In this document: one piece after another, positions 4,989 to 57,500 of the stretch
Layout of the letters: each line of letters begins with the position of its first letter
How positions within the stretch are numbered: position 1 is the stretch's first letter
DNA from: Closterium sp. NIES-65
Lineage: Eukaryota > Streptophyta > Zygnematophyceae > Desmidiales > Closteriaceae
Direction of reading: 5' to 3'
Assembly: GCA_948144175.1 (NCBI GenBank)
Contig: CANXME010000212.1
Span: forward strand, 1,103,501-1,167,500
Length of the DNA: 64,000 nt
Notes under the pieces: generated by a model
The model's input: only the letters and a program-made list of their open reading frames with translations
What the model was told of the DNA's origin: nothing
The model's database searches: none
Program-made: the position numbers and the translations under genes

Positions 4989-4993
4989 GGAGT

Positions 4994-30861: not shown

Positions 30862-31653
30862 TGCGGAGATAACTAGTGCAACGGGAGCTAGACTACGGGC
30901 TAGGCACGGGGCAAGAGTGATCGAAGCGTTCGTTCGTTCCTTAGTCGTTTTCAAGTGCTAACACTGCTTGCTAGTTCACGGGGAAAATTGGCAAGAGTTC
31001 CACTAGGAAAACATCACAAGAATGATTGCATCAACATTGGCAACACAGACTACATCAGGCCTAGCAAGGTTGATAGTCGGCTGCCAGCGCAGCACGGTCG
31101 ACCGCGTGCCAGCACGACTTGGTCGACCGCGCTCCAGCAGAGCAGAGTCGTGGCTTGCCAACGTTGCCAGTCCGCGGTGTGCCAACACTGCAGTAAGTCG
31201 GCTGCACAGCGTTGCATCCGCGGGACACCGGTGCACCTGCTTCGCAGGTGCGTGCAGTTGGTTGGCGCCCAACTCCCCGTCACATGCCCAGCGCAGACAC
31301 TCCACCCGTGACGGCGCCCACCAGCCACGTTGACCTCGGGATACCACCCCCGAGGTTGTCCTCGCTGAAACCACTTCCTGGCGACCTTCGCACACGTCGC
31401 CCGGGTATCCTGGTCGACCGGGTATCCCGTGGCCCCCGGTCGTCCACCGCAGCCACCGCGGTCCCCGCGGTCCCATGGTCTCCCGCGGGCTCTCCCGCGG
31501 TCCTCCCGCGGTGTCGTGGCACCCGCGGTCCTCCCGCGGTTCCGCGGCCCTTCCGCGGTCCTCCTGCGGTTCCGCGGTACCCGCGGTTCTCCCGCGGTCC
31601 CGCGGTCGGCTCCGCCCAAGCGAGGACGGGGCCAAACACTAATCCCATTGACA
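30862..31653 (-). repeat. CopC 3' LTR (inverted relative to the 5' LTR)
   Basis: 792 bp; on the minus strand it begins TGTCAATGGGATTAGTG and ends TTATCTCCGCA. It shares the CCGCGG array and the flanking sequence of 12344-13187. The 52-bp length difference lies mostly in the repeat block. Confidence 0.87.
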
Positions 31654-32100
31654 CTCCCCTGTCGCGTTCACGCTTGGGCCCCCCAGCCCACACGGCAGTA
31701 CTTCTCGGAGAATAGCCCGTCGGCGTGCACACAACGCACAGCACGCCGGTCACCGCACCAGCCATGCAAAAGGGCATGGCACCTACTGCTGCACGTCGTT
31801 GTCACCGTCGCCCACATCGGCCAGGCGCACTTGGCCGATTGCAACGGAGCACCGGTTGAAGGCCGAGTAGTGCAGCGCCTTTGTCAGGAAGTCGGTCGGC
31901 TACTCAGCGATCGGGATGTACTGCAGCAAAAATTTGCCGCGCTTGACCATGTGCTGCAGCCAGGCATGTCGCCGCTCCATGTGCTTGAGGTTGCCCGTCA
32001 ACCCCATGCCCTCGGCGACCGTGATGGCCGACTTGTTGTCCACTCTGAGGACAGCCGGCTTCCCAGCGTCCAGCCGCTGGAACTCCGCGAGGAGGAAGCG
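31654..32100 (-). pseudogene. CopC RNase H C-terminal fragment
   Basis: The minus frame reads FQRLDAGKPAVLRVDNKSA, then SAITVAEGMGLTGNLKHMERR and HAWLQHMVKRGKFLLQYIPIA, with a stop soon after. These match the end of CopC2 pol (33158-33450). The sequence AAGCG at 32096-32100 next to CopC2 would be its target site. Confidence 0.8.
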
Positions 32101-38392: not shown

Positions 38393-38590
38393 TGCGGGGA
38401 TAACTACTACAACGGGAGCTAGACTACGGGCGAGGCACGGGTGCTCGTGTGATCTCTGCGTTCTCTGTTCCTTAGTCGTTTCCTTGTGCACACACTACTT
38501 GCTAGTTCACGGGGAAAGTTGGCAAGGGTTTCACTAGGAAAAGTTCAGAACAATGGTACAATGAAGTTGGCAATACAAGACTACATCAGA
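38393..38590 (-). repeat. CopC2 5' LTR remnant
   Basis: 198 bp nearly identical to 32101-32297, cut off at 38590. The following internal bases TGGTGTAGTGAGCGTGG (minus strand) match the site after the CopC LTR (TGGTGCGGTGAGCGTAG). This is a conserved primer-binding candidate that is not the usual initiator tRNA-Met site. Confidence 0.85.
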
Positions 38591-39083
38591 GCCGCTCCAC
38601 CAGCACCAACCACTTCTGGAACTCCAGCAGCACGTCCGACTTCTTGGCGACCGGCCGCACCCACACATAGCGGGTCTTGCGGTCCTTCAGCAGCAAGAAG
38701 TACAGGCTGCCGTCATTGGCAGCCACGCGAAATGGCCCGCAAAATTCGATGTGCACGACAGCCAGGACGTCGTCTGCTTCGGAGCCGTGGTCGGGGAAGG
38801 TGTGTCGCGCCAGCTTCCCACCGACGCACGAAACACACGGTGAGTCGGCGCCAGACACCAACTTGAGGTCCAGCAAAGTGGCGACCTCGTGCTTCGCCGA
38901 GCTCCGTATCGTGTCCATGCCAACGTGCGCAAGCCTCGCGTGCAGCCTGTTCGGGGTTGCCTTCGTTGCCGAGACTATCGCCCGCAGAGCCACCTCCTCT
39001 TTCGCTGGCATCGTTGCCTGTACTGCGCATGGGCATAGGTCAGTGCAGAAGACCCGGCCAGTGTACGTTGCTCGAACCGGGGC
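38591..39083 (-). pseudogene. CopC integrase N-terminal fragment
   Basis: The minus frame reads RATYTGRVFCTDL, then RLHARLAHVGMDTIRSSAKH, CVSCVGGKLARH and the first integrase block VVHIEFCGPF (catalytic Asp replaced by Glu), ending at DVLLEFQKWL. It begins at the residue where the CopC protease piece at 15105 stops. Confidence 0.87.
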
Positions 39084-39440
39084 GTGCAGTTCACCCCTCT
39101 GATAGTAGGGGGATGCGCACGTGGGGAGACGTGGGGGTGTCTCGGCGGTCGTTTTCGGCGGTGGCTTCGTCAGCAGGGGCATGCGCACGTAGGGCTAGCT
39201 GTGTCGCGCGGGGCTTGTCGGGAGGACGACTCTGTGTTTTCGGCGTATCTTTTAGGGTCACTGAAGGCGCTCATCGAGGTGGCGTTACAACGTGCGCAAG
39301 CCCGTGTCATCCTGCTCCGAGCGACATCTTCCATGGGGAAGATTGACGTAGATTTGGTGGACCGGGAGAGGGACGATGTCGATGTGGAAGGCGGGGCTCT
39401 CTGGGTGGAGGCCCCGTACATGGTGGATACGCTGTTGTGA
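39084..39440 (+). CDS. Short ORF, unrecognised, possible LINE 3' tail
   Basis: An open frame of 118 codons ends at TGA 39438-39440, just before a poly-G run. The second half, with ALIEVALQRAQARVILL and IDVDLVDRERDD, looks more protein-like than the first. If the inversion is undone, this follows the LINE C-terminus, so it could be the end of that element. I find no matching family. Confidence 0.25.
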   Translation: MQFTPLIVGGCARGETWGCLGGRFRRWLRQQGHAHVGLAVSRGACREDDSVFSAYLLGSLKALIEVALQRAQARVILLRATSSMGKIDVDLVDRERDDVDVEGGALWVEAPYMVDTLL

Positions 39441-39443
39441 TTT

Positions 39444-39463
39444 GGGGGGGGGGGGGGGGGGGG
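39444..39463. repeat. Poly-G run of 20 bases
   Basis: Twenty uninterrupted G residues, then ATGGGG. It may form a quadruplex or mark an element tail. Confidence 0.95.
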
Positions 39464-40607
39464 ATGGGGTGTGGGAGGGGAACCCTTGATGGGTGTCTTG
39501 ACTGGGCGTTTTGATTGAGTATCTTGAGGGTGGGTCTTATGTGTGTTGCATTTGGGTTCTGTTTGGCAGTTTCACTTTCCTTCTCCCTTTCTTTCTTCTT
39601 TTCTTTTCTCCTTCATTATTGTTGCTAACGTGTTGTCATGACATCCGAAGTGGTACGAGTACCATACTGATATGTTCAGAATGACTTGGTCTTGAGAGCT
39701 TTACTCGAAAAATAGCATCAAGCTTGGTGTTGGGTGATGAGCCTTCCTCAAGCTTGTAGGTCGTGATGAACCAGGGTCCTCGCTAGCATCCGAGGTATGT
39801 GTGATGCATCAGACGGGTCCTCCGGGCAAAAAAAAACCTTTGTCTGATTCTGACTGGCCCATCAGATCAAGCCAAAAAAATCCGTCTAGAAACTAAGACA
39901 AACAGACAAAAATGTCTGATGTCGAGGACCCTATGATGAACCTTAAGTCGTATCCCCGGCTGGTGTCAAGATTGGTTAGTGGCATGACACCAACTCGGAA
40001 AACACATGGAGGAATAAACCTCTTGGTGTCAAGAGGGGATGGTTCTTGAAGTTGAACGGGCACGTCGCAACACCCGCATTGCAAAACTGACAAATCGCCT
40101 ATCACCCAAACATCAGCAAGATTGCAGATCGCTCATACAAATGTTGGCAATCCATCGCATGTAGATCGCCCAATGTTGGCAACATTGATACCAAACTGGA
40201 GCCGCGCGCACGCGCGGCTCCACCTGGTGGCAAGCAAATTTCCCACTTGCCACCAGCCGAGGATACGATCTTGTACGTTAAGCACGTGTAAGGTTAACTA
40301 CTCTTCACTTGATGCTTAACTTTGTAGACTAATGAAAGATACTATGTGAGCATAAGCTTATATTGAAAGAGGTATAGTACAAGCGTTATAGATCCATAAA
40401 GGATAAATAGGCATCCATTGAAGAAGTAACCATCATTAGTAGCCTTGGAAGAGAGTTGTATGAGAGTAGCATCTTTGGAGACAGTGAACTTGATTGTTAG
40501 CAAGGAGCCTTTGTAGTACAAGGGACTTGAGGAGCTTGAAGTACAAGCTTGGAAAGGAGCGTGATGAAGAAGCTTGAATGATATAAATGATGAGAAGGCA
40601 AATGAGC
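39464..40607. other. Intergenic, no gene; contains a hairpin cluster
   Basis: About 1.1 kb of lower-GC sequence without a credible ORF. The only structure noticed is three adjacent inverted repeats at 40172-40256. Confidence 0.5.
40172..40256. repeat. Three adjacent perfect hairpins
   Basis: AATGTTGGCAACATT (6-bp arms, 40172-40186); 11-bp arms GGAGCCGCGCG and CGCGCGGCTCC separated by CA (40198-40221); 11-bp arms CTGGTGGCAAG and CTTGCCACCAG with an 11-nt AT-rich loop (40224-40256). All arms are perfect. Confidence 0.85.
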
Positions 40608-41807
40608 ACCGATGAGTGCCGGCTGATAGGCAAATTTCTAAACGGCCTGGACCAGAGTATGGTGAAGGAGCTCCGCAGCAAGAAGTTCGAGATGGGCCGG
40701 GAGGCCTAGCTTCTGCAAGTTTACGAAGTGGCGTGTTGCTACGAGATGGGGCTGAAGCTGTACGAGCTGGAGCGAGCGGAGACGAGGGGAGGTGAGAGGC
40801 GATGAGGAGTATGGGTGGCTAACACAACACGAGAACGAGCGCGCTGGGAGGAACCGATGGGCGGAGAACGCCACAAGTGCCATCGGTGCGGCCAACCGGG
40901 GCATATTCAGCAGGACTGCGATCAGGCGCCGCGCTGCGACACGTGCGGGGAGCTGGGGCACCTACGGCGGGAGTGCCCGCGCACGCCGGTCTGCAAACAC
41001 TGCGGGAAGAAAGGACACCGAGAGGCAGATTTTTACTCCAAGAAGCCACCAAAAGAGAGGAGTAAGACCAGGGGCGAGCTCGAGGAAGAGATGCGGAAGC
41101 TGCGGGCACAGCTGGAGGAACTGGGAGAGGAAGAGAAACCAGCGGAGGCATTTTATATTGGCGGAGACGAGGACGAGGAGGCCAGCAGTCAAGTCTCTTT
41201 CCAGCTGATGGTGAGGCCGGGAACGCGACAAGAGGCGGCGCGGCAACGGGGCGAAGGGATCTTGCGAGCTGGCATGCCTGAGAATCCGTGGGTAAAGGAG
41301 CAGAGATGCGCGGAGGACCCAGACTTTGAGGACTCGGCATACCAACCCCCTAAGGAGAGGATGGTATGCCAGTCTACGGTATTGGCGGCGGCCAAGGGAT
41401 CTATAGCAGTGGGTGGCATCCAAGTGGACCTGGCTATCATCGACACAGGAGCGCATCACGTGCTCATTGGAAAGGGGCTCGCGGAGCAAATGCGGTTGCA
41501 CGAGGATGGGCGTCTGCTGGAGCGAGGATTTTCGGTCATGACGGCAGAAGGTGGAGAACCAAAGTGGCTCCCGAGGACGCGACACAGGGTGGAAATAGTG
41601 TTGAATCCGGGGGAGAGGGATGAGTGCCAAGTGAAGCTGGACCGCGCGGTGACCGAATCGGAAGACTACGATTTGCTTGTGGGTATGAGGCTGCTATACG
41701 CCGTGGGCTCAACCATCTGCACGTGGCAGGAGAAGGTGGTATATCGCCCGCACTTCTGGGACCCTAAGGGACCGAGAGGGACACTGCCAGTCTGCTTCGT
41801 TTACTAG
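40608..41807 (+). pseudogene. Gyp1 Gag C-terminus and aspartic protease
   Basis: Frame readable from about 40608 with stops at 40707 and 40803, then open 40815-41807. It has three zinc knuckles: CHRCGQPGHIQQDC and CDTCGELGHLRREC, both perfect CX2CX4HX4C, and CKHCGKKGHREADF, whose last Cys is Phe. An acidic, coiled-coil-like stretch follows (KTRGELEEEMRKLRAQLEEL, about 41060-41130). The retropepsin LAIIDTGAHHVLIGKGLAEQM is at about 41430-41490. The knuckles should bind genomic RNA, and the protease would process the polyprotein. Ends in TAG 41805-41807. Confidence 0.85.
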
Positions 41808-41879
41808 GAGCCGAAGGCCGCCTACCAAGCCCGCATGGTGGATCTAGAGGATCAGTTTGGGGAGATGAGCTAGTACGAG

Positions 41880-42960
41880 GCAGAGGCAGAGCTACAAGTG
41901 CGACGACAGCAGGAGGTTTGGGCAGAAAGGAAAGCGGTAATCCTTGGAGAGATACTGGACAAGCGCATCCTGCAGAAGCCGATCAGGATGCTGGAATTGT
42001 TAGGCGGGCTAGGCACCGGCCTGGCCGCAGCGCTGAAGGCGGGATGGCGGATCGAAAAATGGAGCTACGTGGAGGCCAACCCCAGAGTCCGCGAGATGGC
42101 ACGGCACCATGTGGAGATGCTCAAGCGGACATACCCGGGGCAGATTCTGGACGGCGCTACAGAGAAAAACTGGGAAGACGCGGTGCACGATGTGCGAGAA
42201 ATCGCCTAAGCACAGGTGGCTAAATGGGGAAGAGTGGGCGTGCTCATCGCCAGATGGGAGTGCCAAGGAGTATCGTGGGCGGGCCTGGGAGAGGGCATGG
42301 ATGACGAAAGGACAGCGTTGTTCGAGCAACTGATCCGCATCATGAAACTGATGTATAAGAAGCACGGCGAGTACCTCTACCTACTGGAAAACCTGAATTT
42401 TGAGGCGGACCCGCAGGAGAAGGTGCGAGCGGCGCATGAACGGGTGATCACCGCGTTGGGGGCAGGAGTCGCACTCGATGCTGCCTAGGCAGGATCTCGA
42501 GGAAACCGCGATCGGCAATACTGGCAGAACGGTATCTCAGAAGCACGACTGAGGCTGGAGCTGTCGCGGCTGGAGAGGCCGGCAGGGCGACTGGTCAGGG
42601 ATGTACTGGAGCTCAATCGGACCGAGGCGCCTGTGTTGTACTCGGATCACCCCGCGCAGTATCCCTGCAACGAGCCAGGAGAGCCAAGGCAGGCCTGGCC
42701 GACCCTGGTGGCGCACTACGGGTTGCACGCGTTCCGAATGAAAGCGGGCATACCAGGGTCGGGAATGGTGGAGGACCTGAGGACAAGGGAATGGGGAGAA
42801 CCAACGGCGCTGGAGCGAGAGCTGGCTATGGACTTCCTGCCGGGGGCAACGGTGGCGCCAGGAATCCGAGAATGGGAACGACAGCGAGCCTTGGGGGAAG
42901 GAATGGACGTGCAAGCCATGGAGTGGCTGCTGCACACCATAGAGGTGCAACTGCTGTTGT
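41880..42960 (+). pseudogene. Gyp1 C5-cytosine DNA methyltransferase domain
   Basis: In frame between protease and RT. Motif I (S-adenosylmethionine binding) is MLELLGGLGTGLAAALKAGW with EAN further on (41988-42090). Motif IV is RWECQGVSWAGLGEGMDDER, with the catalytic Cys codon at 42261-42263; the usual Pro before Cys is Glu. Motif VI is LLENL (42381-42395). Motif VIII is RDRQYWQN (42510-42533). Motifs IX and X are TALERELAMDFLPGAT and RQRALGEGMDVQAMEWLL (about 42800-42935). The linear I-to-X order excludes the rearranged plant DRM type, and the ending resembles DNMT3/DRM-like enzymes more than DNMT1. Stops TAA 42207-42209 and TAG 42486-42488 break it. It would methylate cytosine in DNA, perhaps the element's own copies. 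Confidence 0.82.
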
Positions 42961-44948
42961 GGGACATGGACACTAGGGTGGAAGAGAAAGAGTGGTGGGC
43001 GGAGGGAGGTGCAGAGAATAGCGAAGCCCAACTACAACTCAAGGCAGAGAAACGCAAGCTAGAGGCCTTGCTGGAGAGCAAGGAGGCTATCCGGAAGGGA
43101 GGGTGGCCCCCAGGGGAGAACCGGGAAGCAGTGCACAGCCGGATGGCAAAAAGAGGGTGTGCAAAGTCTTACATGGTACTGGAGGCACCAGATCGAGAGA
43201 CCCCTACAGAGCAAGCTGTCGCAGCAGCCGGACAAGAGGATAGGACGACACCAGATCAGGAGGCACCTGCAGAGCAAGCTGTCGCAGGAGCCGGACAAAG
43301 GGAGAGGGCGACGCCAGCTCAGGAGGCCCCGGCAGAGCAAGCTGCCGCGGGAGCCGAGCAAGAGGAGGCAACATGGATGATCGGGGTGGGGCTGACTGTA
43401 GAGCAAGCCGAACGCATGAGAGAGATGCTGAAAAGGCACATGAAGGCCTTCGCTTATACGCTGAAGGAGCTGGGAAGGAGCAAGATTGGGGAGATGAAGA
43501 TAGACCTGATCTCAGACACGCCGACCTTCCAACGGAAGCGAAGGATAACCAGAGCGGACGAGGAACTTTGCAAGGAGAAGTGCAAGGAGCTGTTCGAGGC
43601 AGGACTGATTCGGTGGTCAACATCCGAGTATGCAGCAGCGACGGTGATCGCCGCGCGCAAAGATGCGGCGGGAGAAGTCTTGTCCAGGCGGATGTGCGGG
43701 GATTACCGAGACTTGAACAAGATAACCAAGGCCAACCGGTACCCCATGCCCACGCCGGAGGACATATTTGACAAGCTCGTGGGAGCAGTGGTGTTCACCA
43801 CCTTGGATCTGCGACAAGGCTTCAACCAAATCCCGATCAGGGAAGAGGATCGCGCCAAGACAGCATTCCATGGAGTGGACGGGCTCTGGGAATGGAACGG
43901 GATGCCGTTCGGGATGCGGAACTCCTCAGCCTTCTTCCAGCAAGTGATGGATACGGTGCTGAGGGATGTGGACTGTGCAGCCTGCTACATTGATGATGTG
44001 ATCATCTTCAGCAAGGACCCCGAGTCGCACGTGGCGGATGTGGAGAGGGTGCTGCGGGCAATCATGGAAGCAGGGCTGAGTTGCCACCCGGGCAAGTGCA
44101 AGTTTGGAGAGAGAACCGTGAAGTACCTGGGATTCGAGGTGGCAGATGGAACACTGTCAGTCCAAGTCGCGAAGGTGGCGGTCCTGGACAAGGTGGCGGT
44201 GCCAACGGACCGCAGCAGGCTAAGAGCGGTCCTGGGCTTCCTGAACTATTACAGGAAGTTCGTGCCCAACTTCAGCAAGAGGGCAAGCGTACTGAACCAG
44301 CTGCTGAAGGAGAGCACCGCATGGAAGTGGGGAGAGGAAGAAGACGCAGCCCTGAGGGAGCTGCTGGGGGCAGTAAAGACAGGCCCGGTGCTGATGCTTC
44401 CAGAGAAGGACAAGCCGTTCGTGCTCTATACAGACTGGAGCAGCCTGGGCATGGGGGCGGTGCTGTGCCAGGAGACGGACAGGGGAAAAAGAGTGGTGGC
44501 GTTCTCCAGCAGGAGCTACAGCCCCACGAAGGCGAACTACATCTCCTACGAAGGGGAGGGGTTGGCGGCGGTATGGGCTGTGGAACACTTCCGAGTGTAC
44601 CTACAAGGCAGCCCCTTTACCTTGGTGACTGATCACCTGCCCCTGACATGGCTGATGACAAACCAAACACTGACGGGGAGGAACGCTAGGTAGGCGATGA
44701 GGCTGCAAGAGTACGAGTTCAAGATAAGGCACCATCCGGGGAAGACTCTACAGCATGTAGACGGATTGTCGAGGAACCCTCCCCCACCGGAAGGGTGCTC
44801 GCCTGCGGCTTGCCTCGTGGCCCTGGCCAGCGGCATGCGGGAGACCGAAGAGAGGCGGCATCGAGGAAAGGGGGCCGAGCATGTGTGGGAGGACTCAGAA
44901 GTGCTGCGATGGGTGAAGGGAGAGACAGAAGCAGAGGAGGACGTGTAA
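42961..44948 (+). pseudogene. Gyp1 reverse transcriptase and RNase H
   Basis: The frame runs on from the methyltransferase through an acidic linker with three near-repeats of about 22 residues built on QEAPAEQAVAGAGQ (43190-43370). The gypsy RT follows: DYRDLNKITKANRYPMPTPE, TLDLRQGFNQIPI, GMPFGMRNSSAFFQ and intact YIDDVIIFS (about 43690-44010). The gypsy-type RNase H has LYTDWSSLGMGAVLCQ (first Asp kept), SYEGEGLAAVWAVEHFRVYL and VTDHLPLTWL. TAG 44691-44693 sits at a Trp position, after which the typical WAMRLQEYEFKIRHHPG and HVDGLSR continue to TAA 44946-44948. Apart from the stops, the catalytic residues look sound. Confidence 0.9.
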
Positions 44949-45153
44949 GAAAGAGTGAGAGCGCGGGGCAGGCACTATCGATGGTACCAGCAGCAGCTGC
45001 AAGTGGAGTCCAGGGAAGGCTGGAAGATGGTGCCCGCGCCAGGGCTTCGGAAGGCTCTAATCGAGAAGGTGCATGCAGAACTGGGGCACTACGACCATGT
45101 GAGGACGGCCCAGCTGCTAACTACAGGGTGGTGGTGGGCCGGCCTGCAAAGGG
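44949..45153 (+). pseudogene. Gyp1 integrase N-terminal fragment
   Basis: Same frame. HAELGHYDHVRTAQLL is the HH half of the integrase HHCC zinc-binding domain. The frame runs into the CopB insertion site AAGGG (45149-45153). Confidence 0.85.
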
Positions 45154-45285
45154 TGTGGAAACAAAGAACGAGAATGAAATGACTATGAACGAAGTGAGTA
45201 CAAATAGGAAACCCTAATTGGGTTGTACCCCCTATGGGATACCCCACTAAAGCCTACAGAAACAAGTAAGCTATATGTTCTGACA
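45154..45285 (-). repeat. CopB 3' LTR
   Basis: 132 bp. In plus coordinates it starts TGTGGAAACAAAGAACG and ends ATGTTCTGACA. Confidence 0.97.
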
Positions 45286-45297
45286 CACCCCCATAGG
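45286..45297 (-). promoter_or_regulatory. CopB polypurine tract
   Basis: CACCCCCATAGG in plus coordinates, reading CCTATGGGGGTG on the element strand, the same as in CopA and CopE. Confidence 0.8.
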
Positions 45298-45482
45298 CAA
45301 AGTGGGGGAGAACAAGGGGTCACAAGACCAGTCAAGCAAAGCAAAGCAAAGCTTAGGGTGGATCACAAAGTCACCACACATTCCGAGCACAAGTTCAAAG
45401 GCCACAAGGCCAGTTCACATGCAAGATCATATATAGAGATATACAAGAGCAAGAGTATATATATGCGAAGGTACAAGCAAGG

Positions 45483-48400
45483 TCAAGAGGAGAGCAAGTG
45501 AGGCAAGACAGGCACAAGACCCAACTGCGTGCAGCAACGCTGATGATCACAAGGCGCAAGTGCCTTGGTGAAGACATCAGCAGTGTTGGCCTCAGAGGCC
45601 ACGTACGCAAGTCGCAGCTGTCCACGCTGCTGTAGCTCACGAGCAAGAAAGTAGCGAAGAGCAATGTGCTTCGTTCTGTGCTCCAGTCGCTGCTCTCGAC
45701 ACAAGGCCAGCATGGCCTTGTTGTCTACGTACAGGACTGGAGGAGAACGAGGCTGCTCTCCAAGGTCGGTCAGCAGGTAGGTGAGCCAGCGTAACTCCTG
45801 TGCAGCCATAGCCCCAGCGTAGATCTCAGCCTCACAACTGGAGCCGAGAACAGAAGACGAGCGGGTAGCCCGCCACGAGACAGAGCCGGAACCAAGGCTG
45901 AAGGTGTAACCCTGTGACGACCGCTGCGTAGCCTGGTCGTCAGCCCAAGAAGCGTCTGCGTGCCCAGTGAGGACCACTGGACTGCGCCCTCCAAGCACTA
46001 GCCCCATGCCCGACGTAATGCACAAGTAGCGCAACACCCTCTTCGCTGCAGCCATGTGCTCTGGTCGGTGTCTCCCAGGAGCAACAAAGCGTGTGAGAAT
46101 GCTAAGAGGGTATGCGAGGTCAGGCCGTGTGCAGGTCATCAGGTACATGAGGCAGCCAACAAGCTCTGCAAACGGGCCACTCGACTCTACGGACTCATCC
46201 GAAGGCAGAGCTGAGAGCGAGTGGCGAGTAGGCAGAGGAGTGGCCTGAGGCGAGGAGTACGTGAAGCCGAAGCGCTGAAGGACCTGCTGCACCATGTGTG
46301 ACTGAGTCAGGGTAATGGTGCGGCGTGCTCTGTCCCGGGTGATCTGCAAGCCAAGGTAGCTGCGCAGTTCACCCAGGTCAGTGCACGTGTGTCTCTTCTG
46401 CAGCTCGGACTTCACGTAGGCGAGTCCAGCAGTGTCAGCTGTGGCAAAGACCAAGTCGTCGACGTACACGAGGATGTAGAACGGCGGCAGAGAGGTGTCG
46501 GTGCGCAGAAACAGCGACGGGTCGGCAGTGGAAGGAGCAAACCCAAGTGCCGCGAGCGTAGTCCTCAGTGTGTCGTGCCACTCACGTGGCGCCTGGCGGA
46601 GACCGTAGACTGGACGCCGGAGACTCCACTAGGTACCAGGAGGGAAAGACCCAGTGAAGCCAGGTGGGCGACGCAGCCAGATCTCCTCGTGCAGGCTGCC
46701 CTGCAAGAAAGCTGTGCTGAAGTCGAGAGAGTGCAGCTCGTAGTCACGGTGAGCAGCAACGTGTAGCAGAACCCGAAGAGTGGTCATCTTCGGGGTGGGG
46801 GAGAAGGTCTGAAAGTAGTCAACCCCCTGCCGCTGACTGAAGCCACGAGCCACGTAACGCGCCTTGAAGACAGGCGGAGAACCCGGCGGCCGCTTCACCC
46901 TGAAAATCCACATGCCACTGACGATGTTCGCCCCAGGAGGGGGAACAGCGTCAACGTAGGTGCCTGTGGACTTCCAGGAAGCCATCTCTGCATCCATAGC
47001 TGCCTGCCACTGAGAGGAGTAGGGACCCTCTATCGCCTCCGCGTAAGAGCGCGGAGTCGGGATGTCTGGTGCATCCGGGTCTCCCTCAGGGGCTAGCAGT
47101 ACAGACGCGAGACGAGGTGAAACGGCGGCCAGACACTGGAACTCCTCCTGCCTGTCCTCAAGGACGTCTGTGCCAAGGGCACACTCACCCCCGACGGACG
47201 GAGGACAGGCGGACGCAGACTCAGTGACAAGACGAGCAGCGTAGTCTAGACGATAGCGCGCAGCAAAGTCGACAAGCTCAGTGACAAGGGCAGACGCAGC
47301 AGACGACTCGAAGGAGGGGTCAGTTACAGCAGTAGCCAGGAGACGCGTGACAGTAGGACTGGCAGCACGAAGAGCGTCCGACTCCGGGTCGGCAAGAGCA
47401 GGAAGAGAGGAAGCAGGAGGAGAAGGCAAAGGGGCACGCAGAGGAGCAGTGGACGGACGCAGTGACATCCCATGCGTGCCAGGGACAGGAGGAGGACGCT
47501 GACGCGACCCGCGACCACTAGCGCGCTCAGTACGAACAGGCGACACAGGACGAGACGCAGGCTCACGACGCTCAGTAAGACCTCCAGTCGGACCAGCGTA
47601 GGGAGAAGGAGCAGGCAAAGGGGAGGCAGGCTGTAGCTGTGGCTGTGACCGGACAGGCTGCGGACCCTCTAAGGGAGGAGGAGGAGGTGTAAGACCAAGA
47701 ACCTGCTGCAGGAGCGGAACGAAGTACGGTCGGGGCCGCGCGGCGACGCTAGAAACAGCAGGAACAGCACCAGCAGCCCCGGCAGGAGCACCCACTCCAG
47801 CAGCACCTCCAGCAGCACCACCAGAAGCCCCAGAACCTCCAGCCGCAGCACCAGGAGCACTGTCAGTCGGGCCGCCAACGGCAGGCTCAGCGCCAACACC
47901 CTCAGCAGGACCAGCTCCAGGAGAACTCTCAGACTCAGCAGCTCCAGCACCCACAGTACGAGCGCCGGCGGGGCGCGCAGCAGCAGTGCCCTCTGCAGCC
48001 GAAGAACCACCAGCACCAGCAGCACGCCTCCAGCGCCCGGCAAACCACTCACGCAGCTCCTGTGGGGAGAGTGGCTCCCGGCGAGACGAAGCACCCCCAG
48101 GCACAGCACCTCCAGGCTCAGCACCTCCAGACACAGCACCCCCAGGCACGGCACCCCCAGGCTCAGCACCCCCAGGCACAACACCCCCAGACTCGGCACC
48201 TCCAGGCTCAGCACCCCCAGGCACAGCACCCCCAGGCTCAGCACCCCCAGGCTCAGCACCCCCAGACTCGGCACCTCCAGGCTCAGCACCCCCAGACTCC
48301 GCACCCCCAGGCTCAGCTCCCGCAGCAGCACCAGAGTCACCAGTGACCTCGACAGGCTCGACCGCGTCTACCTGGGACACACCTGAAGGGGCAGGACCCT

Positions 48401-51400
48401 GAGGGGGGAGGGGGACTACCGGGGGGGGACCTGGCACCAAGAAGAGCGGGGGTGGGGGGAGGGACGGAGTGCGGTAGGGGAAGAGGCGGTAGTAGGGTAC
48501 CGACTCGTCGAACGTGACGTCCTGGGAGGACAGAACACGTCGAGAGGTGGGGTGGTAAAACTGCCACCCAGGGGCGTCGGGGGGGAACCCCAGGAAGACG
48601 CAGGGAGAAGCACGAGGGGACAGCTTGTCCGCAGACAGGTCGCGAACAAACGCCCGAGATCCCCAGACCCGGAACGCCGACGCATCGCCAACCTTCCCCG
48701 TCCACAGCAGGGCTGGGGAGGTCTCCGGTCGAGAGACCCTGGGGTGGAGGTTGATCTGGTGCGCTGCGTACCTGACCGCAAACGGCCACAGAAAATGGGG
48801 AGCAGCCGCATGCATCATGGACGTACGAGCGACGTCCATGACCATGCCAATGCGGCGCTCAGCAATCCCATTTTGCTGCGGTGAGTCCGGAAGCGTGAAG
48901 GTCTGACGGATGCCTCGCACACGACAGTAGGCACTCAGGAGGCCGGAGGAGAACTCTCCACCTCTGTCCGAGTGCAGACGCAAAACAGGGAAGTCAGAGC
49001 CAAAGCTCCTCCGAAGCTGGAGACGAGCTGCGCGGATCCAGTCGATCAGCACCGCAGTGACCTCACCCTTGCTGCGCAAGGGGAAGAATGTGGTGTAACG
49101 CGAGTAGTCGTCAACCACCAGCAGGAAGTAGCGCTCCTGACCCTGTCCACGGACGCGGGCTGGGCCCCACACGTCCATGTGAAGCGTCTGCAACGGGGCC
49201 TCTGTGGGAGGAAACTGGGAGGAGTGAGGGGCAGCACGCTGGCGCCCCTCGACACAGGGGACACAGGTGGGGCCAGGGCTCGGAGGAAGGGGAGGGAGAG
49301 ACCGGGGAAGACCAGACACAAGGACTCGCGAGGCCATGCCTCTGAGCCGAAGCAGAGAGGGGTGGCCAAGGCGGTGGTGCCAGAGGAGGGTCTCGTGAGA
49401 CAGACGACGACACGAGCAGGGGGCAGACTCAGGACCAGACCTGGACGCTGCAGCAAACACCTGACCAGACGAAGGGACCCTACCAGACTCAGCACCTGGA
49501 GGAGAAGCAGTGGTCAGTGTGTACAGGCTCGACCCTGGCCGACGTGTAAACGTAGCCAGGTGGCGACCTGTATCCTCCTCCGTGCAGTGGGTCACCCGCT
49601 GACGAGCAGGGGTGAACTGGTGGACACCCGCATCCTGGAGGTCAGCACCACTCACCAAGTTTGTCGAGAACGAGGGGAGGTAGAGACCAGTCAGGGTGCC
49701 AGAGGGGGCCGCCGGACACGGGAGGACAGTGGAGAAGCGAGCCAGGACAGGCCCCCCAGAGGGGTCAGCCAGGGACACTGCAACCGGCCGACTCAGCGGC
49801 GTGAGAGTGGTGCGGTCCCTAAAGAAGGAGCGAGACGCTCCAGAGTCAAGGGTGAAGGTGTGAGAGGCCGAAGCCGACACAGTACCTGAGAGGGCAGACT
49901 CACCAGCACCTGAGAGCACAGACGCACTGGCACCTAGAGCAGCAGCGTCACTAGTACCTGACGCGGCAGTACCAATGCCCGGGTCGGGCGGGAAACACCG
50001 GTAACAGTCATCCTCATCACTACCAATCGCAGCATACATAGCAGAGAGAATAGCATCAAAATCAAGATCATAAATAGCTACACCAGCCCTAGACAGCTCT
50101 CCCCAGCGGGGGATCTCAGCTGCCTCCGGAAACTGCTGACGCCAGGCGTCAGTCAGGCGGCCAAAGCAGCGGCGGGCAGTGTGGGCACCTCCACACCTCT
50201 CCCCTGCACGGTCACCGGTGCGGAGAACGTAGGGGCAAGGACCAAGCGCACCACCACGCTGACGCTGCGAGTACCACTCACGGAGCTGCTGAGGGGCGGG
50301 GACGGTGCGAGAGCGCTGCTGCTGCTGTGGCTGCTGCTGCGGCTGCTGCTGCTGCTGCTGCTGGCGCTGACCACCCCCGGAGCTGCTCCGCTGGGACGAG
50401 CCACTCCGACCCCCGCCTCCACTGCCACCCCCGCCTCCACCGCCACCCCCGTCTCCACCTCCACCTCCCCCACCAGGACCGTCGCTCCCACCGCTCCCAC
50501 CGCCTCCTCCGCTACCACCTCCGCCGCCACCTCCGCCTCCACCGCCGCCACCAGTACCTCCACTCCCACCACCACCCCCACCGCCACCCCCACTCCCCCC
50601 GCCACCCCCACCGCCTCCTCCACCGCCCCCTCTAGCTCCACCCGCTCCCTTGCCCCCCTTGCCCTTGCCAGCGCGGCGCCTGCCGCTGGGGGCAGACGCC
50701 GCGCCGACCGACTCAAAACCAGTGAGGTCGGCCGCAGCGGCAGAGGCGACAGAGGGCAGCAGGGGGGAAGGACCACACCCCTCAAAGATGGGGGTGCGAG
50801 GGTCACCCCGAGAGGCTCCTACAGCGACAATACTCTTCTCAGTCGCTAGCAGGGACTCCTCAAGGAGGTCGACAGTGAGAGTGGTGGGACAGACAGAGAG
50901 AAACTGGTCCCTAACGACACGAAGGGACTCAGGGAGACGGGTGACGAGAAAGTAGAGAGTGATGTACATGGGAGGAGGGTTCGCAGCGCGGAACTCAGCA
51001 GGAAGGGCAGCGCGGTAGCGGGTGTCACTAGCACGGAGGTGGGTAACGAGGTCAGCGACAGTGGGAAAGGAAGCGAGGTCAGGGAAGAGAAACGGTAGCA
51101 TGAGGTGGCTAAGGGTAGCGGAGGAAGGGGAGGAGTAGCGTGCAACTACAGCGTCGTACAAGGCCTGAGCGGTCTTGCACTGACTAAAGTGGGCACGCTC
51201 AGAGGAAGGGAGGTGGCGACGCACAGCAAGACGTGCAGCAGCATCGCGGGTCGCCCACTTGGAGCGAACGGCAGAGTCAGCATCAGCAGGTGGGGCAGGG
51301 ACAGCGCCAGAGACAAAGTCAAAGAGAGAGACCTCATCTATCGCATCACACAGTAAGTACAGCTGCAGGTCTTCAATCCAGACGGCAAAGTCAACGGCCC

Positions 51401-51440
51401 TCCCCTCAGCGTCAAAGGTAAGAACATTGGGGGTGGCCAT
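45483..51440 (-). CDS. CopB gag-pol polyprotein with one in-frame TAG in RT
   Basis: The start is taken as ATG 51440 (MATPNVLTFDAEGRA, matching CopE); the frame is open seven codons further up. In order: UBN2-type Gag (to about 50830); a glycine-rich tract of about 90 residues (50390-50640) and a Gln-rich run; one PQQLREWYS module; the Cys/His motif CX13CX3HX4C (about 50160-50240); protease FTLDSGASRSFF (about 49845); GAG-pre-integrase LLWHHRLGHPS; integrase Asp, Asp and Glu blocks (49175, about 48970, about 48870); a GGAEPGGA-repeat linker with one PQELREWFAGRWR module (48000-48340); RT with DFSTAFLQGS and YVDD (46455-46466); RNase H to 45483. TAG 46626-46628 replaces the Gln before WSLRRPVYGLRQ. 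No frameshift is seen. Readthrough or an active sister copy would be needed for function. Confidence 0.93.
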
Positions 51441-51479
51441 GACAGCAGCTGAAAATCTCACCGGGCTGGGAGAGGCGGG

Positions 51480-51950
51480 TAGGTCAGCAGCAGTACGGCT
51501 CCGCAGGCGGCTCGGGCAGCGCGGGCGGCTCGGGCGGCACAGGCGGCTCGGCGGCGGCTCGGGCGGCGGCTCGGCGGCGGCTCGGCGGCGGCTCGGCGGC
51601 GGCTCGGCGGCGGCTCAGGCGGCGGCGGTTGGCGGCGGCTCGGCTGCTGCTGGGCGGCACGGGCGGCTCGGGCGTCACGGGCGGCTCGGCGGCGGCTCGG
51701 GCGGCGGCTCGGCGGCGGCTCTGCGGCGGCTCGGCGGCGGCTCGGCGGCGGCTCGGCGGCGGCTCGGCGGCGGCTCAGGCGGCGGCGGCTCGGCTGCTGC
51801 TGGGCGGCGCGGGCGGCTCGGGCGTCACGGGCGGCTCGGCGGCGGCTCGGGCGGCGGCTCGGCGGCGGCTCTGCGGCGGCTCGGCGACGGCTCGGCGGCG
51901 GCTCGGCGGCTGCTCGGCGGCGGCTCAGGTGGCGGCAGCTGCTGCTGGGC
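51480..51950. repeat. CopB leader repeat 1: GGCGGCTC array with 150-bp duplication
   Basis: Units of GGCGGCTCGGCGGC fill the stretch just upstream of gag. A block of about 150 bp, marked by GCTGCTGCTGGGCGGC at about 51642 and again at about 51792, is duplicated in tandem. Confidence 0.85.
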
Positions 51951-51954
51951 GGAT

Positions 51955-52400
51955 CGGCGGGGCCGTGTAGCAGAGTGGCGGCGGGGCCGCGACCGAAAAG
52001 AGCGGCGGGGCCGCGTAGCAAGGGGCGGTGGGGCCGCGTAGCAGAGGGCGGCGGGGCCGCGTAGCAGAGGGCGGCGGGGCCGCGATCGAAGGGCGGCGGG
52101 GCCGCGTAGCAGAGGGCGGCGGGGCCGCGTAGCAGAGGGCAGCGGGGCCGCGTGGCAAAGGGCGGCGGGGCCGCGATCGAAGGGCGGCGGGGCCGCGTAG
52201 CAGAGGGCGGCGGGGCCGCGAGACAGAGGGCGGCGGGGCCGCGTAGCAGAGGGCGGCGGGGCCGCGTAGCCGAGGGCGGCGGGGCCGCGATCGAAGGGCG
52301 GCGGCGGGGCCGCGTAGCAGAGGGCGGCGGGGCCGCGATCGAAGGGCGGCGGGGCCGCTAGGGAAGGGCGGCGGAGCCGCGAGGGGAAGGGCGGCGCAAC
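51955..52400. repeat. CopB leader repeat 2: 22-23-bp GGCGGGGCCGCG array
   Basis: About 20 units, core GGGCGGCGGGGCCGCG plus a short variable spacer. It is the reverse complement of the CopA leader core, hence homologous, and sits just after the primer-binding site. Confidence 0.87.
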
Positions 52401-52490
52401 GGTCCGCTAGGGGCGACACGACGGGTCGCCAAAAAAAAAAAACGCGCCTCGGGGCGCGGTTCGGTGGGCCCTAGAAGCAGTCCCTAGGAG

Positions 52491-52509
52491 GGAACCTGCT
52501 CTGATTCCA
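52491..52509 (-). promoter_or_regulatory. CopB primer-binding site
   Basis: The element strand reads TGGAATCAGAGCAGGTTCC next to the 5' LTR, the initiator tRNA-Met complement with one change. Confidence 0.85.
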
Positions 52510-52641
52510 TGTGGAAACAAAGAACGAGAATGAAATGACTATGAACGAAGTGAGTACAAATAGGAAACCCTAATTGGGTTGTACCCCCTATGGGATACCC
52601 CACTATAGCCTACAGAAACAAGTAAGCTATATGTTCTGACA
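52510..52641 (-). repeat. CopB 5' LTR
   Basis: 132 bp, one mismatch to 45154-45285; AAGGG follows at 52642-52646. Confidence 0.97.
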
Positions 52642-53760
52642 AAGGGATGTGAAGAGCGTCGTGGCAGAGTGCGAGCTGTGCAGCCAGAACAAGGCCACGC
52701 TGGAAAGGGAGCACCAGGAGCTGCATTCACTCCAGATCCGCGGATTGGGGTATCGGTGGTCGCTGGACCTCGCAGGAGAGTTGCCGCTGAGCCGCAAGAA
52801 TAAGCGGTACGTGCTCGTCATGATCGAGCACGTGTCCAAGTGGGTGGAGGTGCGAGCGCTCAACAGTAAGAGCGCAGAACTGATCGCCGAGGCGTTTACA
52901 GATCAGGTGCTGACGCGAAGGAGCATGAGGTGAGGTCCTGACCAATCAAGGGACAGAATTCAGGGGAGCATTTGATCAGCTACTGAAGCGAGTGGGGATA
53001 ACGCACCGCCGGACCTCGAGGTATCATCCGCAGGCAGACGGACTGACAGAGCGCATGGTGCAGACTATCAAGAAGGGTCTGTGAGCCAACAGTGAGGAAC
53101 ACAAAAGGGATTGGGACCAAGAGCGGCACTGGGTCGTGGCAAGATACAGTTTCAGCAGGCATGCGGCTCTGAGGGACTACTCGCCGTACTACCTACTGTA
53201 CGGGAAGGAGCCAGTGCTGCCGGTGAACGCCCCAAAGACCCCGAGTGCTGTACGAGATCGTGAAGGCAGGAGACCCCGAGAAGTGGGCAGCCCTGGCAGA
53301 TTGCCGAGCAAGGTACCTGAAGAAGATTATGCCTGCGGCACTCGAGAACCTACACACGGCGCAGCTGCGAGACACGAAGAGGTACCAACAGAGGCAGCTG
53401 CAGGTAGGGAGAGGAGGTAGCAAGGGGGTAGAGAGCGGAACCGAGATGTACATCTGGAAGGCCAAAAAGGACACCCTGGACGTGGGCCTCTCGGTGGAGC
53501 GGTGGGTGGTGAAAGAGGTGAGGCCGTCTGGTGTGCTGGTGATCGAGTCCGAGGAAGGCAAGAAGAGGGACGACCATATCACCAACGTGGCGCGGGCGAT
53601 GGGGAGCAAGATGAGAGGAATTCCCGAAGGACCAGCAGCAGGAGCCGAGCAGGTCCCGGAAGGGGGCAAGTGGGTAGATCGCCCAGGAAGCATGAACCTG
53701 AGCAGGCACCCAAAAGAAGGAGGAGGAGAGTGGAAAACAGGGAAGGTAGAGGGAGCATGA
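52642..53760 (+). pseudogene. Gyp1 integrase, catalytic core and C-terminus
   Basis: Resumes with CELCSQNKATLE, the CC half of the HHCC domain. The core Asp block is WSLDLAGELPLSRKNKRYVLVM. A frameshift near 52925 leads to LTNQGTEFRGAFDQLL (second Asp replaced by Asn) and SRYHPQADGLTERMVQTIKKG (the Glu block). A TGA at 53082-53084 and another shift near 53250 follow. The C-terminal segment includes EMYIWKAKKDTLDVGLSVER and ends at TGA 53758-53760. There is no clear chromodomain. It would insert the cDNA, but this copy is broken. Confidence 0.85.
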
Positions 53761-53813
53761 GGTAGAGTAACCGCTGACTCAAAGCAGAAGAGACAAGAGG
53801 GGATAGGGGCCCA

Positions 53814-54406
53814 TGGCATCCGACAGCTGTCGCACGGAACGAGAAAGTACATATGTTTCTGTTCTGAGCGACATGAGTGTACTGGTTCGAAGCGAAACGG
53901 GGCAGCTAGTAGCAAAGGTGTATGGCGAGTGTACATGACAGTTGGAGTACCAGGACATGCTGACAGATGGAGCACTCCTGAGCGAGCACCACGGAATGCA
54001 AGCATGCCGCAAGTACAGTGATGGCAGCTGAGTTGGGGTTTCACGTGAAACAGGGATTGGGGGTGCGGTTGGCGAAGAGCAACTGTGGGGTGAGGTCCGT
54101 GAACGGCGGGGATCATTCTTGTACATAGGTGGGCTGTTGTTTGACGATTGAGATGCCTGCGTGTTGGATGATCTGTTTGTTGCGTGCGTGCGATGTTGGC
54201 GTGTGTGTGCAGGTTCCAGCCTAACCCCTCGCCTGCAGCAAGAAGCCAGCAGCTAGCCAAGATTCACCCTGTACATAGGATGCTAGCAAGCTCTAGACTC
54301 CTTGCTTGTTTGTATGCAGTCTAGTGTAGTGGAATGCGTTCTGCTATCTTCCTAGCAGGAATCAGCCACAATGAGAGAAACCTGTCGTTAGGTCAGTGGA
54401 CTTTTT
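53814..54406 (+). repeat. Putative Gyp1 3' LTR
   Basis: Starts TGGCATCCGACAGCTG after the purine-rich GGGGATAGGGGCCCA. No 5' LTR partner exists in the window, and the right end is set only by the duplicated segment that follows. It has no coding sequence. Confidence 0.45.
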
Positions 54407-54408
54407 GA

Positions 54409-54565
54409 GTGGGTAGATCGGCCGGGAAGCATGAACCAAAACAGGCACCCGAAAGAAGGAGAAGGAGAGTAGAAAACAAGGAAGGTAGAGGGAGCATGAG
54501 GTAGAGTAACCGCTGACTCAAAGCAGAAGAGAGAAGAGGGGAGAGGGGCCCATGGCATCCGACAG
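54409..54565 (+). repeat. 157-bp direct copy of the Gyp1 3' end
   Basis: Repeats 53670-53826 with about ten mismatches, covering the last integrase codons, the purine tract and the first 13 bases of the LTR. It is fused at 54566 to the CopF RT at a shared TGTCG. Confidence 0.85.
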
Positions 54566-57500
54566 TGTGTCGTGCCACTCACGTGGCGCCTGGCGGAGAC
54601 CGTAGACCGACTGCCGGAGGTTCCACCGGGTACCAGGAGGGAACGACCCAGTGAAGCCAAGAGGGCGGCATAGCCAGATCTCCTCTTCTGCAAGAAAGCT
54701 GTGCTTAAGTCAAGAGAGTGAAGCTCGTAGTCACGCTAAGCGGCAACGTGCAGTACACCCAACCACCGCTATTTTCTTTCCGTCTATTTTCAACCCCACT
54801 TGCGCAAGTGGGTATGCACCCTTTCTTGAATCTTTGACCGAGGGCTATGTGGGCGCCAGAAATTTCACACTGATTTCACAGTGAGTTGGTTCCAGACCCC
54901 CAAAAAGGGTAGAAGTGGCACAAGGGTTCGCGACAGCAAAAGTGCCCCTTTTCAGATTTGCTTTCATGCGTTTCTTAACTTTAGAAATCGGGGTGCTTCG
55001 TAGCTCAAGTTCCCTAAGTGCCCAACTGAAATAGTCGAATGCGTGTAGGGCATCTTTGAAACGCGAGAACGGTGCAATGGTTCGGAGTTGAAAATAGCGG
55101 TGGCTAGGTGTAGCACCCGAAGAGTGGTCATCTTTGGGGTGGGGGAGAAGGTCTGGAAGAAGTCTACTCCCTCTCGCTGACTGAAGCCTCGAGCAACGTA
55201 ACGAGCCTTGAAGACAGGCGGAGTACCTGGCGGCCGCTTCACCCTGAAAATCCACATGCCACTGACGATGTTCGCCCCAGGAGGGGGAACCTCGTCGACC
55301 TAAGTGCCTGTGGAATTCCACGATGCCATCTCTGTGTCCATGGCTGACTGCCACAGAGAGGAGTACTCACCCGTGATCGCCTCTGCGTAAGAGTGCGGGG
55401 TCGGGATGTCTGGTGCATCCGGGTCTCCCTCAGGTGCAATCACCATGGACACGAGATGAGGTACAGCGGCGGCAAAGCACTCAAACTCCTCTTGCCTGTC
55501 CTCAAGGACGTCCGTGCCAAGAGCACACTCACCCCCGACGGACGGAGGACAGACAGACTCAGACTCAGCAACAAGACTCGCAGCGTAGTCTAGACGACAG
55601 TGAGCAGCAAAGTCGACAAGCTCAGCAACTAAGGCAGACGCAGCAGCTGTCTCAAAGGAAGGGTCAGTGACAGCAGTGGCCAGGAGACGCACGACAATAG
55701 GACTAGCAGCACGAAGAGAGTCAGACTCCGGGTCAGCAAGGGCAGGAAGAGAGGACGCAGGAGGAGAAGGCAGCGGGACACGCTGGGGAGCAGTGGAAGG
55801 ACGAAGCGCCATCTGGTGAGTGCCTGGGACAGCTGGAGGACGCTGACGTGGGACACGACGACCAGTGCGAGCAACACAAAAAGGTGATGCAGACCGAGAC
55901 TCGGGCGACACAGGACGAGACTCAGACTCATGATGCTCCGTAAGACCGCCTATCGGACCAGTGTAGGGAGAAGGACCAGGGAGTGGCGAGGCAGGCGGTA
56001 GCTGTGACAGAGACTGGACAGGCGGAGGACACTCTAAGGAGGGAGCAGGATAAGGAGGAGGCGGCTGACCAAGAACCTGCTGAAGGAGGGGAACGAAGTA
56101 CAGCTGCGGCCGTGAAGTGCCCCCTGAACCAGCAGAGACAGCACCAGAACCTCCATCAGCAGCTCCAACTCGCTCAGCACCACCAGCAGCTCCAGTTCCT
56201 CCGGCAGCACCAGCAGCACCAGCAGCACCTCTAGCAGGACCAGCACTAGCAGCACCTCCAGCAGCACCAGCACCTCCAGCAGCACCAGTACCTCCAGCAG
56301 CACCAGCCCAAGTACCAGCAGCACCACCAGCAGCTCCAGCAGCTCCAGTACCTCCAGCAGCACCAGCAGCACCTCCAACAGGGCCAGCTCCAGCAGCTCC
56401 AGTAGCACCCCCAGTCCCAGCAGCTCCAGTACCGCCAGTACGAGCACCTCTAGGACCAATGGCTCCAAACCTCCAGCGCCAACCCGAGGGTCAGCATCAA
56501 CACCCACTCCAGTAGGCTCGGCGCCCTTAGCTCCAGCTCCAGTAGCACCTCCAGCTCCCACAGTACCACGGCGGCGGCAACAGTACCGAGAGTACCACTC
56601 ACGCAGCTGCTGGGAAGAGAGAACGCCCCCACGCGCAGCACCCCCAGGCTCAGGACCTCCAGACTCAGCACCCCCAAGGACAACACCCCCAGTCTCAGCA
56701 CCCCCAGGCTCAACACCCGCAGTCTCTGCACCCCAAGGCTCAGCACCCCCACTCGCAGTACCCCCAGACCCAGCACCACCAGGCTCAGCACGCTCAGGCT
56801 CAGCACGCTCAGTACCTCGCGCAGGACCAGAGTCGACAGCTACCTTGACAGGCTCGACCGGGTCTACCTGGAAAACACCTGGGGAGGCAGGGGGTCTACC
56901 AAAGCAGCACCTGGCGTGAGGAAGAGCGGGGCAGTGCGGTAGGGAAAGAGACGGTAAAAGGGGACCGATTCGTCAAACGTGACGTCCTGAGAGGGGAAGA
57001 CACGGCGCGAGGTGGGGTGGTAAAACTGCCAGCCAGGCGCGTCAAGGACAAAGCCCAGGAAGACACAAGGAACGGCATGGGAGGAGAGCTTGTCCACGGA
57101 CGTATCGCGGACAAAGGCACAAGATCCCCAGACACGGAACACAAATGCATCGCCAACCGCTCCCGTCCAACGCAGTGTCGGCGAGGTCTCCGGAACGGAG
57201 ACACGGGGCCAGAGGTTGAGCTGATGCGCGGCGTACCAAACCGCAAACGGCTACAGAAAATGGGGGGCAGCCGCATGGATCAAGGAGGTACGAGCGACCT
57301 CCATGACCAATCCAATGCGGTGCTCAGCAACCCCATTCCGCTGAGGAGAGGCTGGACGCGTGAACGTCTGCTCAATGCCCTCCCCCTGATAGAAGGCCTC
57401 CAAGAGGCCGGAGGAAAACTCACCACCTCTGTCAGAGTGCAGTCGCTGGACGGGAAGGTCCGTGCGAAAGCGCCTCTCCAGCTGGAGACGAGTAGCGCGG

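Follow-up and report, generated by a model that had tools for sequence, protein, structure and literature searches.

The locus described here, from Closterium sp. NIES-65, raises the question of whether a cytosine methyltransferase belongs to a retrotransposon polyprotein and, if it does, how an element so equipped inserts into the genome. The preliminary description had read a C5-methyltransferase (DNMT) domain in one frame with a protease before it and a reverse transcriptase (RT) after it. This is confirmed by the frame of the window, by which we mean the whole stretch of 64,000 nucleotides that was analysed, and by open-frame relatives. That reading therefore stands as regards the DNMT in the polyprotein, but it had overlooked in-frame stops, a nested copia, split repeats and a circle-like junction.

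A methyltransferase domain within a gypsy polyprotein

The window carries a single degraded Ty3/gypsy element on the plus strand, extending from about 40606 to 45153 and from 52642 to 54564, with the domain order gag-protease-DNMT-RT-RNase H-integrase and interrupted by a nested copia and by in-frame stops. Its features are given below, with the C5 motifs (I, IV, VI, VIII, IX/X) labelled by their usual naming.

40606..41804, plus strand: nucleocapsid part of gag, with CCHC zinc knuckles, and aspartic protease; Pfam zf-CCHC 3.5e-12 (well above cut-off), gag-asp_proteas 3.7e-4 (below cut-off)
41955..42950, plus strand: predicted DNMT3-like C5 cytosine methyltransferase domain, from sequence searches and family evidence; stops at 42207 and 42486
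from about 41991, plus strand: motif I, LELLGGLGTG, counted on the translation
42255..42269, plus strand: motif IV, WECQG, with the Cys codon at 42261 and Glu replacing the usual Pro
about 42387, plus strand: motif VI, ENL, counted on the translation
about 42513-42530, plus strand: motif VIII, RQYWQN, counted on the translation
about 42801-42936, plus strand: motifs IX/X, counted on the translation
43689..44690, plus strand: reverse transcriptase and RNase H; Pfam RVT_1 1.3e-31, RT_RNaseH 1.1e-28, both well above cut-off
45042..45152, plus strand: start of the integrase (H2C2 zinc domain), severed by the nested copia; Pfam Integrase_H2C2 5.5e-5, slightly below cut-off
45154..52641, minus strand: nested Ty1/copia; LTRs 45154-45285 and 52510-52641, 99.2% identical; target duplication AAGGG at 45149-45153 and 52642-52646
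52642..53659, plus strand: rest of the gypsy integrase, from translation and nucleotide homology to relatives
53660..53667, plus strand: polypurine tract AAGGGGGC, immediately 5′ of repeat B1
53669..53825, plus strand: repeat B1, 93% identical to B2 by self-comparison
53822..53831, plus strand: palindrome GACAGCTGTC at the B1/A2 joint (exact match), proposed integrase cutting site
53828..54407, plus strand: repeat A2, taken as the stretch from palindrome to B2 by analogy with relatives, A1 being absent here
54408..54564, plus strand: repeat B2, whose GACA is the right element end, with GTGT beyond it, from self-comparison and sequence

Gag-protease (with the protease motif DTGA at about 41439), DNMT and RT share one common reading frame, stops included. 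Downstream of 40806 the translation is broken by TAG codons at 41805, 41871, 42486 and 44691 and by TAA codons at 42207 and 44946. Homology to relatives starts at about 40606, and neither the gag start nor the 5′ repeat A1 was found, the stretch from 38501 to 40900 having been searched for A1. Since there are stops in the polyprotein frame and the gag start and left repeat are missing, this is an old, dead copy, which nevertheless retains B1, the palindrome, A2 and B2.

The nested element, named copia from its translation rather than by a family search, lies inside the gypsy integrase and is not part of the gypsy. It is nearly intact and young, with LTRs of about 132 bp and an array of 15-bp tandem repeats at 48045-48385. 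Fragments resembling it are found directly 3′ of the gypsy right end (window 54563-58063), so that an older copia may have been the insertion site of the gypsy. Elsewhere in the window, 15643-20354 holds long frames on the minus strand (968 and 530 aa) that contain short peptide repeats in tandem, and a common NGISVWPRP-H/R-LGGA lead followed by RGRTAG-like repeats is found at 12154-13042 and 31006-31667, possibly representing one dispersed repeat.

Taken alone, the window DNMT is a marginal call. Its translation, searched with X in place of stops, matched PF00145 with an E value of 4.1e-4 and 20.3 bits (cut-off 22) around motif IV only, and phmmer against PDB returned 19 chains, all DNMT3 and all insignificant (best E 0.14). 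It is the family of relatives in the same genome that removes the doubt. A PF00145 profile search of the 874-Mb assembly gave 123 scored matches among 901 candidates, many of them in long open frames, and from the 123 we sampled 20 loci, mostly for long open frames, which makes the sampling biased. The Pfam check that had been proposed is thus missed by the window copy itself but passed by its relatives, since all 20 match PF00145 and their loci were above the cut-off in the genome scan. All 20 also carry GWECQG, a conservation that is partly selected because the loci were picked by a Pfam match centred on motif IV. Their alignment shows no variation at the catalytic Cys, at the Glu of motif VI or at the arginines of motif VIII, and little or none at the motif I glycines.

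A codon-pattern count over the whole genome found GWECQG at 681 sites (haplotype duplicates included), the reversed pattern at 1 and GWPCQG at 2. The 681 sites are an incomplete count of the family because GWECQA variants exist, and the window copy, reading RWECQG, lies outside them; L053 and L054 represent a subfamily with GWECQA as motif IV. In place of the PC dipeptide of C5 motif IV, 20/20 sampled copies have EC, and the Glu ahead of the catalytic Cys is thus genuine and almost fixed in the family. Chance similarity or a misframe as the source of the DNMT signal is ruled out by the genome-wide counts.

The DNMT3-like character that had been attributed to the domain was upheld, as DNMT3 came first in both the profile and the fold searches of the relatives. 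Against PDB, a profile of the 20 copies gave DNMT3A at 3.5e-16, DRM at 1.9e-10, HhaI at 1.1e-7 and Dnmt2-type chains from 7e-4, with no DNMT1 chain among the 59 listed. For an AlphaFold2 model of the L009 DNMT (pLDDT 84.8, pTM 0.87), the best fold match was DNMT3A (E 1.9e-16, TM 0.63 by query and 0.76 by target, rmsd 4.8), and the best 50 of 1634 matches were all DNMT3. The model is poor from the catalytic Cys onward, with residues 103-117 at pLDDT under 50.

Pfam searches on the proteins of four relatives detected RT, RNase H, H2C2 (above cut-off in 4/4) and an rve (DDE) integrase in all four, a protease (Asp_protease_2 or gag-asp_proteas) in three, and no tyrosine recombinase domain. In the three proteins extending to gag, all domains lie in a single open frame; the fourth protein, L016, has its DNMT in the frame of RT through integrase. 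The family has the Pol order of Ty3/gypsy elements, PR-RT-RNase H-integrase, with an rve integrase, and its polyproteins encode between protease and RT a predicted enzyme, a DNMT3-like C5-methyltransferase domain. That the DNMT belongs to the gypsy polyprotein in intact copies was borne out by the four scanned proteins, whose open frames rule out a position outside it.

The family is an abundant Ty3/gypsy with hundreds of copies in the genome, recent insertions among them. Contig pairs C62/C2102, C1639/C2251 and C935/C1798 share an insertion and its flanks, which probably means that both haplotypes are present in the assembly and that copies are overcounted. Copies of rbcL on C40, C75, C97, C162, C824, C1848 and C2174, with equal scores and in both orientations, are likely unresolved plastid assemblies. 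DNMT homology was also present in five of a small set of seven loci without a listed GWECQG motif (L049, L050, L052, L053, L054). Four of the seven were junction loci fetched without GWECQG nearby; three of these have DNMT homology (L049, L050, L052), and in L051 RT and integrase were found, DNMT and protease were not, and the 5′ side consists of other repeats. The other three were RT matches without the listed motif, two of which encode GWECQA while one (L055) is a fragment cut at both sides. In this small search of seven loci, no clear DNMT-free sister element was found. One of them, L049 (about 260-6492), is internally deleted, with gag, protease and DNMT homology and a DNMT frame without the CQ motif; its RT and integrase core was not found. 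It is flanked by A repeats that are 98.5% identical over 388 bp, and was possibly mobilised by the proteins of other copies.

Repeats, ends and target duplications

Self-comparison revealed, in 11/20 sampled loci, two sets of direct repeats ordered A, coding, B, A, B. Together with its ends the layout is TGTC-A-coding-B-GC-A-B-GACA, at which the internal B-A joint reads GACA-GC-TGTC (with one base changed in L002) and A2 abuts B2 directly without a spacer. The identical terminal LTRs that define Ty3/gypsy elements are not found in this family, where A stands at the left, A-B at the right, and an extra B is internal. A polypurine tract occupies the start of B in 15/16 tabulated relatives, as it does in the window, L014 being the exception, and A ends at the start of the leader. 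No TGG-type tRNA primer site after A was seen by eye in the complete loci. The only two controls from the same genome, the closely related gypsies L044 and L045 of another type, have ordinary LTRs, L045 also showing a 5-bp duplication and a tRNA-type primer site; no CQG motif was found in the longest frame of either.

The ends of the complete loci were set by repeat matching and not by target duplication, and 4-bp target duplications match in 11/11 of them, at 10 independent sites (L013 and L015 being the same site). Ten further copies, examined in short stretches, included four complete ones with matching duplications, of which three are independent since C2102 is the same site as L001. Among independent sites with all four repeats, 4-bp duplications were thus found in 13/14; C1798 has the four repeats without a duplication, and its left end is not intact. 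C935, whose right flank is common with C1798, has B repeats only, and in C1728, C106, C2188 and C1122 the split-repeat structure was not seen in the short stretches examined. The joint pattern TCCGACAGCTGTCR occurs at 448 genome sites, that of the window among them, compared with 16 for two reversed controls.

A repeat-free form, A-coding-B, was found in 6/20 loci (L008, L009, L010, L012, L018, L019). In a count of B ends, the joined form of one subfamily occurred at 12 sites. Target duplications are present in L009, L018 and L019; those of L008 and L010 were part of the search criterion, and L012 has its ends and no target duplication. L004 is without B2, L005 is without A1, and L020 gave no clear layout. 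We give even odds that the repeat-free copies stem from ordinary ones that recombined between B1 and B2, rather than from inserted one-LTR circles. The direct repeats available to such recombination span 85-283 bp in the copies measured, and a deletion of this kind would preserve the target duplication; yet only 2 DNMT changes separate the repeat-free L009 from the repeat-bearing L007, a closeness that leaves little time for it.

The A-B junction differs even between near-identical copies, and therefore seems to be newly made in each cycle. L007 and C802 differ there although their A repeats are 99.5% and their B repeats 98.4% identical, C802 lacking 14 bases at a AGGAAGGG match. In L003 and L002 (A 98.9%, B 99.2% identical), the A of L003 is longer by about 276 bases and its B shorter by about 14. 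Other junctions differ by 0-2 bases, one joint is common to L007 and C2100, and the differences include microhomology and extra bases.

Known relatives and the origin of the methyltransferase

The preliminary description had pointed out that retrotransposons with such enzymes were already reported, and this is correct: KnitGypsy-Dnmt3 of Klebsormidium nitens is described as a gypsy by its domains, with DIRS-like repeats and, in its Pol ORF, a Dnmt3-related DNMT under purifying selection (de Mendoza et al. 2018, PMC5890265). Compared by that published description alone, the likeness covers the gypsy domains, the Dnmt3-related DNMT in Pol and the A-coding-B-A-B repeats, and it is by this equal make-up that we place the Closterium family with the same kind. 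The two come from different assemblies, that of the present one measuring 874 Mb with 681 motif-bearing sites (haplotype duplicates included), and the K. nitens genome is far smaller. A distinct acquisition had been proposed as possible from the position of the domain, the Glu and the tail; the Glu is real (681 sites against 2), but the distinctness is not supported, given the like make-up published for KnitGypsy-Dnmt3. A literature search for KnitGypsy turned up no paper other than that of 2018 (PMC5890265), and a 2025 paper refers back to the retrotransposon-DNMT finding (PMC12344493).

As far as published descriptions go, two further groups share parts of this architecture. SymbioDIRS-Dnmt3 of Symbiodinium has Dnmt3 in Pol and A-coding-B-A-B repeats, but a tyrosine recombinase instead of a DDE integrase and an RT of a distant class (PMC5890265). 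The repeat order A1, B1, A2, B2 is also that of PAT/Ngaro/VIPER elements, which use a tyrosine recombinase, whereas the present family has an rve integrase and 4-bp target duplications (PMC6681497).

Within the genome, we compared the evolution of DNMT and RT by dN/dS in 19 loci (L018, without an RT motif, was dropped), which gave 171 pairs, 16 of them with low synonymous divergence. Six pairs with at least 31 synonymous changes are informative and stand for two contrasts (L002/L003 vs L007/L009, and L004/L005 vs L019); their dN/dS is 0.06-0.11 for DNMT and 0.08-0.11 for RT. The other 10 close pairs have few changes, with a scattered DNMT dN/dS of 0.16-0.63 or undefined, and in the 155 saturated pairs DNMT is faster than RT (median pN/pS 0.48 vs 0.28). 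In the few informative pairs, then, DNMT is constrained like RT. DNMT and RT distances among 12 representatives are correlated (Mantel r 0.95, p 0.0001), which fits a single uptake ahead of the subfamily split.

One may ask whether the DNMT was acquired separately from KnitGypsy-Dnmt3, a DNMT3-like enzyme of phage or virus type being a possible source; we regard this as very doubtful. A phage DNMT3-like enzyme can indeed be aligned with the larger part of the domain (31% identity, hhalign 99.1%) and retains a CQG-S-AG-DPRS-LF stretch that is absent from human DNMT3A, but this stretch is general to C5 enzymes. Short-pattern scans confirmed no viral or prokaryotic relative in viral_contigs or genome_contigs, and one origin is simpler because the gypsy backbone and repeat layout are the same as those described for KnitGypsy. 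Phage C5 enzymes match the element DNMT at 27-34% in the ten matches listed of 300 records, and phage sequences searched with RT-RNase H gave no match. The phage methyltransferases of GA2A (L046 595-1467) and PD114 (L048 695-1684) resemble the element DNMT, and the best solved relatives of the GA2A enzyme are DNMT3A.

A proposed circular DNA stage and the possible role of the methyltransferase

While the principle of a DNMT-bearing gypsy was already known, the unusual ends suggest insertion from a circular DNA intermediate. Our best explanation, which we hold to be fairly probable, is that the window contains a dead copy of a DNMT3-bearing gypsy family that would integrate by opening a circle and whose DNMT would methylate its own cDNA. 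With B at the polypurine tract and A ending at the leader, ordinary LTR reverse transcription would yield an LTR of the form B-GC-A, and thus a linear cDNA bearing it. The cDNA ends would then be joined imprecisely to form a two-LTR circle containing B-GC-A-B-GC-A. Integrase would cut the palindrome GACA-GC-TGTC within one LTR and the opened circle would insert, giving A-coding-B-GC-A-B, at which the A-B joint would be the former joint of the cDNA ends. If the palindrome were cut after each CA, GC overhangs would result and two bases would be lost, matching the observed ends. The predicted DNMT, as part of the same polyprotein, may methylate the cDNA before it inserts or as it does so, CG being the probable target. 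The missing tRNA-type primer site is a gap in this reverse-transcription scheme.

A precedent for parts of this cycle exists, as foamy virus integrase was reported to cleave a palindromic two-LTR circle junction (PMC1180852), and a circle-junction model of retroviral integration, later abandoned, has its history in PMC11054761. Going by what these sources describe, the likeness is that of an integrase acting on the palindrome of joined ends with a loss of two bases (PMC1180852, PMC11054761); the difference is that in the present family the palindrome is internal to the LTR and that the opening of the circle would be recorded in the integrated layout itself. Among the matches listed in our literature search, titles and opening abstract lines did not describe circle-opening integration for a retrotransposon.

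Alternatively, the circle may be templated, following the templated-circle model of PAT/Ngaro-like tyrosine-recombinase elements: the internal B-A of an A-coding-B-A-B RNA would splint the ends, the junction would be copied, and a DDE integrase would open the circle. This also predicts a circle containing the palindrome, and the repeat order of the family is the split-direct-repeat order published for those elements (PMC6681497), the K. nitens layout having been called the same as DIRS in the text of de Mendoza et al. (PMC5890265). Nonetheless, we find it improbable, since near-identical copies have different junctions (with microhomology, additional bases and, once, a shift of about 276 nt), the polypurine tract begins B in 15/16 relatives, and a tyrosine recombinase is absent from the Pfam matches of four proteins.

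Returning to the two-LTR circle and the methylation of its cDNA, that the enzyme acts on the element's own cDNA was suggested by de Mendoza et al. (PMC5890265), and from sequence we consider self-methylation by the predicted DNMT plausible. A self-methylating transposon hiding from restriction, as had been envisaged for this locus, is not supported. Transitions between repeat copies of 11 loci were counted at 21/618 CG, 18/890 CHG and 19/2961 other C/G sites, an excess that fits methylated genomic copies, although the methylating party may be the host. CpG observed/expected ratios are 0.70-0.81 in the elements, 0.92 and 0.94 in the control gypsies, 0.78 in the nested copia and 0.53-1.06 in the flanks.

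Perhaps the DNMT is kept for DNA binding or packaging rather than for catalysis, which we think unlikely. In its favour, almost every copy has Glu where C5 enzymes usually carry the Pro of PC, the L009 model is poor from the Cys onward, and the DNMT of K. nitens showed no activity in yeast, a result that its authors call inconclusive (PMC5890265). Against it, none of the 20 copies (picked by a motif IV Pfam match) departs from the Cys, the motif VI Glu or the motif VIII arginines, the motif I glycines are invariant or nearly so, and constraint is near the level of RT in the informative pairs.

More tentatively, and with somewhat less than even confidence, we propose that a retrotransposon with a DDE integrase opens its two-LTR circle at a palindrome and that DNMT capture by split-repeat elements is favoured by a circular DNA stage. 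Such integration would be an instance in nature of the abandoned circle-junction model. DNMTs would have been captured repeatedly by such elements (Dnmt3 here and in SymbioDIRS, Dam-like in DIRS) because a circular stage gains from methylation. Symbiodinium LINEs are, however, described as carrying DNMTs too (PMC5890265), so DNMTs can be captured without a circular stage, which would not be the sole cause.

Retrotransposons with an enzyme of the kind that is used to silence them have been known since 2018, and what benefit they draw from it is the question. The hundreds of copies, the recent insertions and the constraint on the DNMT make this family material for testing the role of the enzyme. 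If the circle reading is true, the family would offer a natural integrase system using the palindrome of joined ends, a mechanism that was proposed for retroviruses in the 1980s and then set aside, and it would suggest one reason why methyltransferases gather in split-repeat elements.
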